A stretch of 64,000 nucleotides of DNA from Flavobacteriales bacterium (GTDB lineage: Bacteria > Bacteroidota > Bacteroidia > Flavobacteriales > TMED113), in contig PBCX01000003.1 in NCBI GenBank assembly GCA_002718035.1, positions 100,035-164,034 of the forward strand. The letters are read 5' to 3'. The notes below the pieces were generated by a model. It saw only the letters and a program-made list of their open reading frames with translations, ran no database searches and was not told where the DNA came from. Below, piece by piece: positions 58,739-64,000 of this stretch. A program made the translations under genes and the position numbers. Each line of letters opens with the position of its first letter. Position 1 is the stretch's first letter.

Positions 58739-61378
58739 ATGGATAATCAAGATATAAATGATGACCAACAAAATCAAAAAGTAATTCCTATAAATATTGT
58801 TAATGAAATGGAGTCTGCTTACATCGATTACTCCATGAGTGTAATTGTGTCAAGAGCGCTTCCAGACGTTAGAGATGGTTTAAAACCCGTACATAGAAGA
58901 ATATTATACGGGATGCATGAATTAGGGCTTATGTCCAATAGATCTCACAAAAAATCTGCTAGAGTTGTTGGTGAAGTTCTTGGTAAGTATCATCCCCACG
59001 GTGATTCATCTGTATATGATGCAATGGTTAGAATGGCACAAGATTGGTCTCTTAGATATCAAATGGTAGATGGTCAAGGTAATTTTGGATCTGTTGATGG
59101 GGATAGTCCAGCTGCTATGAGGTATACTGAAGCTAGATTACAAAAAATGGCAGAGGAGATGTTGTCTGACATTGATAAAGATACTGTAGACTTTCAGTTA
59201 AATTTTGATGACACTCTAAAAGAACCAACTGTTTTGCCAACAAGAATTCCAGCTATATTAGTAAATGGTGCTAGTGGAATAGCTGTTGGTATGGCTACAA
59301 ATATGGCTCCTCACAATCTGACTGAAGTTTTGGATGGTATAATTAAATACATTGAGTTAAGAGGAAAAATAGAAGTTTCGGAGCTTATGAATTATATTAA
59401 AGCACCTGACTTTCCAACAGGAGGAATCATATATGGTTATGAAGGTGTAAAACAAGCTTATGAAACTGGTAAAGGAAGGGTAGTGTTAAGATCAAAAACA
59501 CATTTTGAAGAGTTAAAAAACAACAGAGAAGCAATTATTGTTACTGAAATACCTTACCAGGTAAATAAGTCTGAAATGATTAAGAAAACAGCAGAATTGA
59601 TTAATCAAAAGAAAATTGAAGGAATTTCTGATATCCGTGATGAGTCTGATAGAAGAGGTATGAGAATTGTTTATATATTAAAAAGAGATGCTATTCCAAA
59701 TATAGTATTAAATAAACTTTTTAAATATACCCAGTTACAATCATCTTTTAGTATTAATAATATAGCATTAGTTAAGGGGAGGCCTAAACTTCTAAATCTC
59801 AAAGAAATAATTCAATTGTTTGTAGCTCACAGACATGAAGTCCTTATTAGAAAAACTAAATTTGATCTTAAACAAGCTGAAAAAAGGGCTCATATTTTAC
59901 AAGGTCTTTTAGTTGCCCTTGATAATTTAGATGAAATTATTGAATTAATTAAAAAATCTCATACACCTGAAGAAGCTCGAAATGGACTAATAAATAATTA
60001 TTCTTTATCTGAAGTTCAGGCAAAAGCAATTTTAGATCTTCGTTTACAAAAGTTAACAGGACTTGAAAGAGATAAGATAAAAAAAGAACACCAGGATCTT
60101 ATGGATAAAATAAAGTCCTTAAATGAAATTTTATCTAGTGAAGACATAAGATTAAATATGCTGGTTGAAGATTTTAAAGATGTTAAAGAAAAATTTGGTG
60201 ATGAAAGAAGAACTCAGATTGAATATTCAAGTGCTGATCTATCTATTGAAGACATGATACCTAATGAAAAAGTTGTAATTACCATTTCTCATTTAGGCTA
60301 TGTAAAAAGAACTCCACTCTCCGAATATCGACAACAAAACAGAGGGGGGGTTGGTCATAGAGGAGCTTCTTCCAGAGATGAAGACTTTTTAGAGCATATT
60401 TTTATTGCTACTAATCACAACTATATGCTCTTTTTCTCTGAAAATGGAAAATGTTTTTGGCTTAAAGTTTATGAAATACCCGAAGGTTCAAAAACATCAA
60501 AAGGAAGAGCTATACAAAATCTAATTAATATTCCATCTGATGATAAAATTATGGCATACATTAATGTCGAAAATTTAAAAGATGAAGAATATATAAACTC
60601 TAATTATATATTAATGTGTACCAAAAAGGGTGTTATTAAGAAAACATCCTTAGAATCTTATTCTAGACCAAGGCAAAATGGTATAAAAGCTATAAATATT
60701 AGAGAAGGTGATCAGTTACTAGAAGCTAAGTTGACAAATGGATCAATGGATATAATGATGGCGCTAAAATCAGGTAAATGTATAAGGTTTAACGAAGAAA
60801 AGGCTCGTTCTATGGGTAGAGGAAGTACAGGAGTAAGAGGTATCAGATTAGCTACGGATAATGATCAGGTCATTGGAATGATATGCGTAGATAATATAGA
60901 ATCTGAGGTATTAGTTGTTTCCGAAAATGGATATGGAAAAAGATCAAAAGTAGAAGACTATCGAACTACTAACAGAGGAGGAAAAGGAGTGAAAACAATT
61001 AACATAACTGATAAAACAGGTAATTTAATTGCTATCAAGAATGTTAAAGATGGAGATGATCTTATGATTATTAATAAATCAGGAATCACCATTAGAATGT
61101 CTGTTGATGATATGAGGGTCATGGGTAGAGCAACTCAAGGTGTCAGACTTATTAATCTTAAGAACGATGATATAATTGCTGCTGTAGCTAAGGTTGAGGT
61201 TTCTGATGATGATGAAGTAATCGATGATAGTCAAGAAAATGTTATTAATGAGGATAATAAAATTGAAAGTAGTGATGCTAATGTTGAAAGTAAATCTATT
61301 GAAAATTCAAATGATTCAAACAATGATAATTCCTCAGCAAACAACAATGATGAAGAAAATAATGTAAACTTAAATTAA
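58739..61378 (+). CDS. gyrA: DNA gyrase subunit A with long acidic tail
   Basis: [60 protein letters not shown] (catalytic Tyr). Confidence 0.96.
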
Positions 61379-61383
61379 TACAA

Positions 61384-62571
61384 ATGAAACTATCTATTAT
61401 ATTTTTCTTTGTAGCAAATTTTTTATTTGCTCAAAAAGCAGATTTAACTGGAAGTATTATTGCTTTTAATAAAGAGGATATTGAAACCGCTAAAGAATTA
61501 ATTGATATTGCTCATGATAAGTATATGAAAAAAATTAGTGATGGTACTAATAAAGATAAACCAAAGATAATGTCAAAATTTTGGCACTACAGAGGGCAAA
61601 TTTATTTAAAATTAGGAGATCTTAATGTCGCAATAGAATCCTTTAAAAAGGATTTAGATTTAAATGCTAAAGGAGGCTTTCAAAAAAAATCTATAAGTTC
61701 TTTAAATTTATGTGCCGCTCAGTGTTTAAATGAAGCTGATGAAAGCTATAAAAAGGCTTTAGAACTTTTTGAAAAAAATAAAGATGAAGCAAAAAAAAAT
61801 ATTTCAAAATCAGCTGATATGTTTTTGAAGACGTATGAGATAAGAAAAAATCCATCTATAGGCGTAATAGATACCGCTTCACTTTTTAATGCTTGTTTAC
61901 TTTATTCAGATATTGGTGATTCAAATTCAGATCTATTAGCTTTAGAACAAGCTAGAAAATTAGTAGATCTTGATCCCAAAGATGAAAAATTTCAGGTTAG
62001 ATTGTTAGTTTGTTTAGAAAAAAAGGGTGACAAAAGCTTATTAAAATCTGCTATTGATAATGCAAGATTAAATATCCCATCATCTCAGGATATAATTAAT
62101 AGAGAAGTTAATTATTATATTTCTATTGATGATAAGGAGGGTTTAAAGAAAAGTTTAAACACTGCAATTCAGTCTGATTCTCAAAATCCAGTACTACATT
62201 TTGCTCTTGGAACAGCTATGCAGTCCTTAGGAGATAACGATGGTGCAAAAGAATCTTATATAAAATCTATAGAATTAGATCCTACTTATTTTGATGCACA
62301 CAATAATATTGCTAGCATGTATTTAGATGAGACAGCCTCTCTGATAAAAAAAATGAACAAATTAGGTTCAAGTTCTAGCGATCAAAAAAAATATAATAAT
62401 TATAAAAAGAAGAGAGATAATTTATATAATCAAAGCATTCCACATTTAGAGGATTGTATAAAAATTCAACCTGATAATATTACTATTTTAAATGTTTTAA
62501 AAGAACTGTATTATAAAGTTGGTGATATAAAAAACATGAAGAGAATTAAGTCTCAGATTGATTCGCTTTAA
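61384..62571 (+). CDS. Secreted/periplasmic TPR-repeat protein
   Basis: Signal peptide; HFALGTAMQSLGDNDGAKESYIKSIELDPTYFDAHNNIASMYLDE. Confidence 0.85.
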   Translation: MKLSIIFFFVANFLFAQKADLTGSIIAFNKEDIETAKELIDIAHDKYMKKISDGTNKDKPKIMSKFWHYRGQIYLKLGDLNVAIESFKKDLDLNAKGGFQKKSISSLNLCAAQCLNEADESYKKALELFEKNKDEAKKNISKSADMFLKTYEIRKNPSIGVIDTASLFNACLLYSDIGDSNSDLLALEQARKLVDLDPKDEKFQVRLLVCLEKKGDKSLLKSAIDNARLNIPSSQDIINREVNYYISIDDKEGLKKSLNTAIQSDSQNPVLHFALGTAMQSLGDNDGAKESYIKSIELDPTYFDAHNNIASMYLDETASLIKKMNKLGSSSSDQKKYNNYKKKRDNLYNQSIPHLEDCIKIQPDNITILNVLKELYYKVGDIKNMKRIKSQIDSL

Positions 62572-62577
62572 TTTTTT

Positions 62578-63648
62578 GTGATAGTCAATAAAAAAATAGA
62601 GCAAGCAAGTACGATTGATAGCAAGTTCTATACATCTGATTCAATTTTTTCTAAATCAAAGAAAATTTTTGAAAACACTTGGCAATTTATAACACATGAG
62701 TCGAATTTAGACGCTAAAAATGCTTTTCCATTTAACTATTTAGATAATTTTATCGATGAGCCTTTATTAGTCGTTAGAAATAAAGATAATATAATTAATT
62801 GTTTTTCAAATGTTTGTACCCATAGAGGTAATGTTTTAGTTGAAGATCATAGTACAGTTAAAAATAATTTTTTTTGTCGCTATCATGGCAGAAGATTTGA
62901 CTCTGAAGGTAAATGTATATTTATGCCAAAATTTGAAAATGTTATTGGCTACCCCTCTGCTACTGATAATTTAACTAAAATTTCTATTTCAAAGTGGCGT
63001 CAATTTATTTTTTGTTCATTAAGTGGCGATTTGAAAATTGATAATTTTTTTTCAGATATGGAAAAAAGAATTGGTTGGTTGCCAATTGAAGATTTTATTT
63101 TTGAACCCAAATTATCAAAAGATTATGAAGTAAAGGCAAATTGGGCTTTATATTGTGACAATTATTTAGAGGGTTTTCATATTCCGTTTGTTCATCATGA
63201 TCTTGCAAAACAATTTGAGTACGATGAATATTCTGTTGAGTTATTCCCGTACTCTAACCTACAACTTGGAATCGGAAAAGATGGAGAGGATTGTTTTGAT
63301 TTACCAACCACTTCCGTAGATTATGGTAAAAATATAATTGCCTATTATTTTTGGGTTTTTCCAAATATGATGTTTAATTTTTACCCATGGGGCCTTTCAT
63401 TAAATATTGTTAAGCCAATTTCCAAAGATTTAACAAAAATTGAATTTCGTTCCTTTGTTTGGGACAAAACTAAATTACAAATTGGAGCTGGATCTAATTT
63501 AGATAAAGTAGAGCAAGAGGATGAAGAAATAGTTGAATCTGTACAAAGAGGAGTGAATTCAAGATTTTATAACAAAGGAAGATTTTCCCCATCTATGGAG
63601 ACTGGAGTTCATCATTTTCATACGCTACTAAGTGATTTTATAAAGTAA
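62578..63648 (+). CDS. Rieske [2Fe-2S] ring-hydroxylating oxygenase alpha-subunit-like protein (GTG start)
   Basis: CTHRGNVLVEDHSTVKNNFFCRYHGRRFD Rieske motif; YCDNYLEGFHIPFVHHDL mononuclear iron site. Confidence 0.9.
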   Translation: MIVNKKIEQASTIDSKFYTSDSIFSKSKKIFENTWQFITHESNLDAKNAFPFNYLDNFIDEPLLVVRNKDNIINCFSNVCTHRGNVLVEDHSTVKNNFFCRYHGRRFDSEGKCIFMPKFENVIGYPSATDNLTKISISKWRQFIFCSLSGDLKIDNFFSDMEKRIGWLPIEDFIFEPKLSKDYEVKANWALYCDNYLEGFHIPFVHHDLAKQFEYDEYSVELFPYSNLQLGIGKDGEDCFDLPTTSVDYGKNIIAYYFWVFPNMMFNFYPWGLSLNIVKPISKDLTKIEFRSFVWDKTKLQIGAGSNLDKVEQEDEEIVESVQRGVNSRFYNKGRFSPSMETGVHHFHTLLSDFIK

Positions 63649-63707: not shown

Positions 63708-64000
63708 ATGAAAAATTTTTTACTTTTCTTTATTTTTTTAAGTTTTAATATATCCTTGTCTCAAGTCGTAACTTTTGAATGTAATAATACAATTATAACC
63801 GTTTCATGGGATGAAGTTGTAAATAATCCTAATGCTTATATGGATTGGGATGGTGATGGAGATATTGACGAAACTGATGCTGTTATTTATTTACTACAAG
63901 CATATGAATGCGATGATAATGATGTGGATAATGATGTGGATAATGATGTGGATAATGATGTGGATAATGATGTGGATAATGATGTGGATAATGATGTGGA
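63708..64000 (+). CDS. Secreted Asp/Asn-rich repeat protein, 3'-truncated by window edge
   Basis: MKNFLLFFIFLSFNISLSQVVTFECNNTIITVSWDEVVNNPNAYMDWDGDGDIDETDAVIYLLQAYECDDNDVDNDVDNDV...; open to window end. Confidence 0.75.
   Translation, partial: MKNFLLFFIFLSFNISLSQVVTFECNNTIITVSWDEVVNNPNAYMDWDGDGDIDETDAVIYLLQAYECDDNDVDNDVDNDVDNDVDNDVDNDVDNDV
63915..64000 (+). repeat. Perfect 12-bp tandem repeat gataatgatgtg, at least 7 copies, running out of the window
   Basis: Identical units at 63915, 63927, 63939, 63951, 63963, 63975, 63987, then 'ga'. Confidence 0.97.

Follow-up and report, generated by a model that had tools for sequence, protein, structure and literature searches.

In-frame variable-number tandem repeats have been described in bacterial surface proteins, such as the B repeats of SasG and the Ilm repeats of Yersinia, and it is well established that short repeats longer than the k-mer break genome assemblies (PMC6868369). 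The (DNDV)n array reported here resembles both in that its units are identical at the DNA level, lie in frame in the gene of a putatively exported protein and break short-read assembly. Its unit, however, spans only 4 residues, whereas those of SasG and Ilm are folded domains of 70-130 residues, and it is known from a single assembly. The encoded protein can in turn be compared with the substrates of the type IX secretion system (T9SS) of the Bacteroidota (PF18962 / TIGR04183 tail), with which it shares a signal peptide, a Cys-rich, acidic multi-domain body and a C-terminal sorting domain; unlike them, it has no enzyme domain match, and most of its body is without a Pfam family. A search of the literature on minisatellites in T9SS proteins of the Bacteroidota, on variable FtsY acidic domains and on bacterial LDL-A modules returned nothing on point. 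Taken alone, the array is of an ordinary kind, one more in-frame minisatellite of an exported protein, and its additional interest lies in being an instance of what may be a family-wide tendency. Streamlined marine bacteria are often thought to shed repeats.

A perfect coding minisatellite at a contig end

The window (the whole 64-kb stretch of DNA analyzed here) comprises positions 100035-164034 of contig C1 of the host genome, G000, and its right edge is the true end of that contig (164034 bp). The frame open from the ATG at 63708 reads MKNFLLFFIFLSFNISLSQVV...YMDWDGDGDIDETDAVIYLLQAYECD(DNDV)7 (Table 1). Within the window, TRF scores the GATAATGATGTG array at 172, with period 12, 7.2 copies and 100% matches, although ascertainment accounts for part of such perfect identity where a contig ends, since assemblers stop at identical units and unseen middle units could differ; the second-best array of the window scores 72. 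The perfect 12-bp coding repeat of the original prediction is thus real and in frame, and it would qualify as a coding minisatellite (units of 6-100 bp, in frame within an expressed ORF), its ORF running on in contig C4 and in the congeners.

The codons of the array are informative about its origin. In all seven units Val is encoded by GTG, the rarest Val codon in this region (4.1% of 392 Val codons in 17 neighboring ORFs). Seven units would agree in all their synonymous codons, whatever the set, with a probability of about 5e-4, and this particular codon set would recur in six further units with a probability of about 2e-10 if codons were drawn independently. The presence of a rare codon in every unit therefore indicates that the DNDV units descend from one founder and, together with the gap between the two TRF scores, rules out a chance repeat. 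DNA coding for (DNDV)3 was found in none of the 297 other genomes of the order. The codon signature and this restricted distribution support the predicted recent expansion, which would have proceeded from a single founder; the units are homogenized, with GTG present in each. A phage or mobile origin was also considered and rejected: the exact 24-mer has no match in IMG/VR and the module that follows the array does not occur in phage records.

The second half of the gene and its counterparts in congeners

The original prediction had the array continuing off the edge of the window. It does not do so on C1, where the edge is the contig end, but it does at the end of C4, the only other place in the G000 genome where the GATAATGATGTG array is found (92 bp, minus strand, same frame). 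Past the array, C4 encodes about 770 residues before a stop codon, which excludes the early stop just past the window that would have undermined the prediction. On C4, the last unit, at the right edge, is already degenerate (GATAATGACATT), as would be expected if the array were renewed from within.

One continuous gene matches both halves in each of two congeners, the single-cell genomes AG-343-M05 (G001; 923 aa) and AG-333-I18 (G002; 642 aa, partial, cut by a contig end), and the G001 orthologue is 70% identical over the N-terminal 69 residues. These genes, together with the C4 half, rule out a truncated or spurious ORF. On its upstream side, the G001 gene is accompanied by the TPR and Rieske genes found on C1, three further genes intervening; on its downstream side the arrangement of reversed C4 recurs, with its two inverted genes and its purT-like gene. 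Both the order and the content of the genes therefore support the join C1-array-C4. Also in G001, the orthologue is adjoined by a gene for an M64-type peptidase with a very Asp/Asn-rich, TSP3-like stretch, which is not at the same place in G000 or G002.

Protein alignment of G000, its C1 and C4 halves joined with the array shortened, against both congeners locates an in-frame insertion in G000 between AYEC and CGDYITIVVDC. It comprises the array and a module of about 55 residues, both of which are missing from the genes of G001 and G002, two genomes of the same genus. As judged from the aligned sequences, the array is hence a species-specific insertion.

Table 1. Location of the array, its gene and related features (positions without a contig or locus label refer to the window)
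Feature	Location	Strand	Basis or remark
Tetratricopeptide (TPR)-like protein, second upstream neighbor	61384..62571	+	same order in G001 and G002
Rieske-type oxygenase-like protein, upstream neighbor	62578..63648	+	conserved upstream in G001 and G002
5' portion of the gene (97 codons), still open where the contig ends	63708..64000	+	ORF
Putative Sec-type signal peptide MKNFLLFFIFLSFNISLSQ	63708..63764	+	by eye; conserved in G001 and G002
EF-hand-type loop DWDGDGDIDETD	63843..63878	+	pattern by eye
Perfect 12-bp coding minisatellite (GATAATGATGTG)7.2 = (DNDV)n	63915..64000	+	TRF; cut by contig end
Remaining 802 codons, array copies overlapping	G000:C4 41870 down to about 39462	-	ORF; join by congeners
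Scattered single ambiguous bases	L010 5800-7700 (G000:C4)		second half of the gene and neighbors
M64-type peptidase	L018:3545-6790 (G001)		adjoins orthologue
Lysyl-oxidase domain protein	45797-48928
GyrA, degenerate D/N/S tail	58739-61378		G000
GyrA, (DDSSS)n tail	L019:5226-7823		G002
S16 acidic C-terminal tail	G000:C9 start (L037/L070); C10 start (L038); L068-L074
L31 (type B) tail	G000:C9 end (L055/L082); L079-L081
FtsY repeat linker	G000:C7 end (L053); C8 end (L054/L083); L084-L093

Domain architecture of the predicted product

The N-terminal part of the protein begins with a putative Sec signal peptide, the first attribute of a type IX substrate, which on inspection is alike in G001 and G002; this conservation is in agreement with the secreted protein originally proposed. 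It is followed by a segment that had been described as EF-hand/dockerin-like, a description of which only the first half holds. The loop DWDGDGDIDETD, with D at positions 1, 3 and 5, G at 6, I at 8 and D at 9 and 12, conforms to the EF-hand-type pattern D-x-[DN]-x-[DN]-G-x-[ILV]-[DNS]-x-x-[DE], and loops of the same pattern occur in G001, G002, G005 (DVNDDGVIDNCD) and G007 (DFNGDGIIDPSE). The loop is hence kept across four genera, while the array occurs in none of the relatives. A type I dockerin (PF00404), on the other hand, has a duplicated pair of Ca2+ loops, each some 22 residues long, and was discarded, because there is only one loop and neither a Pfam EF-hand nor a dockerin match to the protein up to E = 1. 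An AlphaFold2 model of the G001 orthologue, based on a two-row alignment, has a mean pLDDT of 29.7 and was set aside.

The domain past the repeat, which the original prediction had left to be looked at, is an LDL-A-like module lying directly after the array; on C4 it precedes a Kazal-like segment and, at the C terminus, a type IX sorting domain. Similar modules are found in other secreted proteins of the family, at the N terminus in G005 and G002 and elsewhere in the protein in G008, and a profile built on four bacterial modules matches LDL-receptor class A repeats in the PDB. The Pfam score of the module (PF00057) is 17.5, under the cut-off of 24.1. Like LDL-receptor class A repeats, it keeps the putative acidic Ca2+ cage DGxxDCxxxxDE, of which D39, G40, D43, C44, D49 and E50 are invariant in the four modules. 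In contrast to them, it starts with an extra CxxC and lacks the fourth of the six cysteines (C1-C3, C2-C5, C4-C6), the canonical C-D-G being replaced by N/G/A-D-G. The disulfide set of the bacterial module therefore cannot be canonical, and for the same reason we name it LDL-A-like rather than LDL-A.

The Kazal-like segment scores 21.3 bits in G000 against a cut-off of 21 and 32.7 bits in G001, and the remainder of the protein includes a conserved W/D-rich segment without a Pfam name and Cys repeats of the GCTDxxACNY type. The anticipated C-terminal T9SS tail is present. It exceeds the curated Pfam cut-off of 27 in the orthologues of G001 (41.2 bits) and G002 (32.6 bits), and falls below it in the G000 copy (19.3 bits), a score plausibly lowered by ambiguous bases in C4. 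Scattered single ambiguous bases affect the second half of the gene and its neighbors (Table 1), and strain mixture or low coverage may be their cause.

Origin and role of the array

The reading that best accommodates these results, to which we assign a probability of roughly three in four, is that the array is a young coding minisatellite, that the modular protein encoded by its gene is exported in two steps, first through Sec and next through the type IX secretion system, and reaches either the cell surface or the medium, and that the array itself most likely encodes a flexible acidic spacer of a length that varies from cell to cell or from strain to strain. The array sits exactly between a small N-terminal domain with an EF-hand loop and the Cys-rich LDL-A-like module gained by the G000 species, and a single founder unit with the rare GTG codon would have been multiplied through replication slippage or unequal exchange. 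Each change in copy number would then add or remove four residues (DNDV, with two negative charges) and leave the frame intact. Since the unit of 12 bp is a multiple of 3, slippage would alter the length of the spacer and not an on/off state, and the likely effect is a graded variation of spacer length and charge. The spacer is pictured as exposed, strongly acidic and still changing in length. The break in assembly inside the array is the one observation consistent with the active copy-number change of the original prediction. Were copy number to differ among cells or strains, the array would count as a hypervariable VNTR or contingency locus; the congeners carry zero copies.

The strongest competing explanation holds that the array arose as a neutral by-product when a module was inserted: a local duplication would have brought, or come along with, the LDL-A-like module, and slippage in the acidic linker would have followed with no functional effect. 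An imperfect direct repeat (13/15; GATAATGACATTTTA / GAAAATGATATTTTA, 186 bp apart) brackets the module, and only one other 15-mer with so close a match was found on both strands of the 64-kb window, which suggests that a local duplication may have accompanied the insertion. The occurrence of similar modules in other secreted proteins of the family and the joint absence of array and module from both congeners are in line with this view. A 15-mer in Asp/Asn-rich text, however, is likelier to find a chance partner than one in average DNA, and the order of events is unreadable when a single species carries the insertion. This explanation, possible but on balance doubtful, invokes a mechanism compatible with that of the young acidic spacer and differs from it only by denying function.

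A second alternative, which we consider unlikely, is that DNDV constitutes a selected, repeated Ca2+-binding device akin to RTX or thrombospondin type 3 repeats, sea-water Ca2+ stiffening an ordered stalk that would hold the LDL-A-like and Kazal modules off the N-terminal domain. Asp or Asn occupies each of the first three positions of every unit, and the neighboring EF-hand loop and LDL-A-like module both carry known Ca2+ ligand patterns, so that Ca2+ binding by the modules flanking the array is plausible. For the DNDV units themselves it would be a guess. On inspection, a period of four yields neither the RTX nonapeptide (GGxGxDxUx) nor the thrombospondin-3 (DxDxDGxxDxxD) register, and it does not fit the EF-hand either, in which V would fall at the twelfth position, that of the bidentate ligand; moreover, the congeners manage without the array. 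The other minisatellites of G000 specify units that are likewise acidic but very unlike DNDV, and they do so in cytoplasmic proteins, which favors composition and slippage over a Ca2+ fold. The surface stalk of the original prediction is not supported, the domains on either side of the array being small Cys-rich modules. Finally, an assembly error or a chimera joining two unrelated genes via a simple repeat is highly improbable, for although C1 and C4 both end in the array and the draft assembly consists of 19 contigs, C4 being dotted with ambiguous bases, the separately assembled contigs each carry 86-92 bp of array in the same frame beside their own unique flank, the congeners possess a single gene spanning both halves with matching neighbors on both sides, and a chimera would not recreate a relative's gene order.

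Coding minisatellites in the genome and the family

The (DNDV)n array does not stand alone, and it was this array that led to the wider pattern: contigs of G000 also break in the genes for S16, L31 and FtsY, at sites where the perfect repeats of relatives are different ones. The sampled G000 stretches (524 kb), which include all contig ends and were chosen partly for being ends, contain 11 perfect arrays of at least 36 bp. Eight of these lie no more than about 250 bp from a contig end, of which the genome has 38 (binomial, 2e-12; a rough figure, as a contig-end array counts once for every end and repeats are where assemblers cut). Besides DNDV (C1, C4), the contig-end arrays encode ATEEAP on S16 (C9, C10), VAEETP on L31 (C9), VVEEEP in FtsY (C7, C8) and a VVEDAP tail (C15), and C7 and C8 probably join inside the FtsY repeat. 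Like the DNDV array, the acidic tails of S16, L31 and FtsY are perfect coding minisatellites (of 15-18 bp) with species-specific units and contig breaks. They differ from it in belonging to cytoplasmic or membrane-associated proteins and in the richness of their units in E/P/A/T/V, as opposed to D/N.

In the relatives, the acidic tails of all three proteins are kept and the repeat units are different. The minisatellite tail at the C terminus of S16 has another unit in each relative, and a perfect tandem run of at least 53 bp is present in 7/7 of the S16 genes found in the host's family. Among the other families examined, such runs occur only in G018, G031, G052 and G060, all of 1.7 Mb; the parsed genomes of 2.5-5.4 Mb have none. 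The tails of type B L31 are likewise species-specific and minisatellite-coded (VAEETP, PAEEEA, TSTEEE, PVTEEA), and in FtsY a coding repeat makes up the acidic N-terminal linker, its unit being a different one in nearly all genomes of the family (VVEEEP, PEPEPE, VQQEVQE, ITSEPELASEPE).

It is thus tempting to postulate, at slightly less than even odds, that perfect coding minisatellites arise time and again in the host's family of small-genome marine Flavobacteriales, within acidic low-complexity segments of exported proteins and of core machinery (FtsY, S16, L31), with charge and composition kept and the DNA unit replaced in nearly every species. The tails would then act as fast length-tuning elements, of which (DNDV)n would be the exported-protein case. 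Should copy number prove variable, slippage would be a means by which streamlined marine bacteria retune the acidic tails of their ribosomal and secretion proteins, and their short-read assemblies would be systematically cut at genes with repeat tails.

Two further proteins encoded in the window deserve mention. The one at 45.8-48.9 kb, also exported, combines a lysyl-oxidase domain (PF01186, E 7.9e-29) with dockerin-like loops, Asp/Asn text of the TSP3-like kind and a T9SS tail. It had been thought to carry Asp/Asn repeats related to the array, and the likeness does hold for composition; its Asp/Asn text, however, is degenerate and thrombospondin-3-like and has no DNA-level tandem repeat, so that TRF rules out a repeat common to both genes at the DNA level. 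The other is GyrA, the acidic low-complexity tail of which is a degenerate D/N/S stretch in G000 and takes the form (DDSSS)n in G002.
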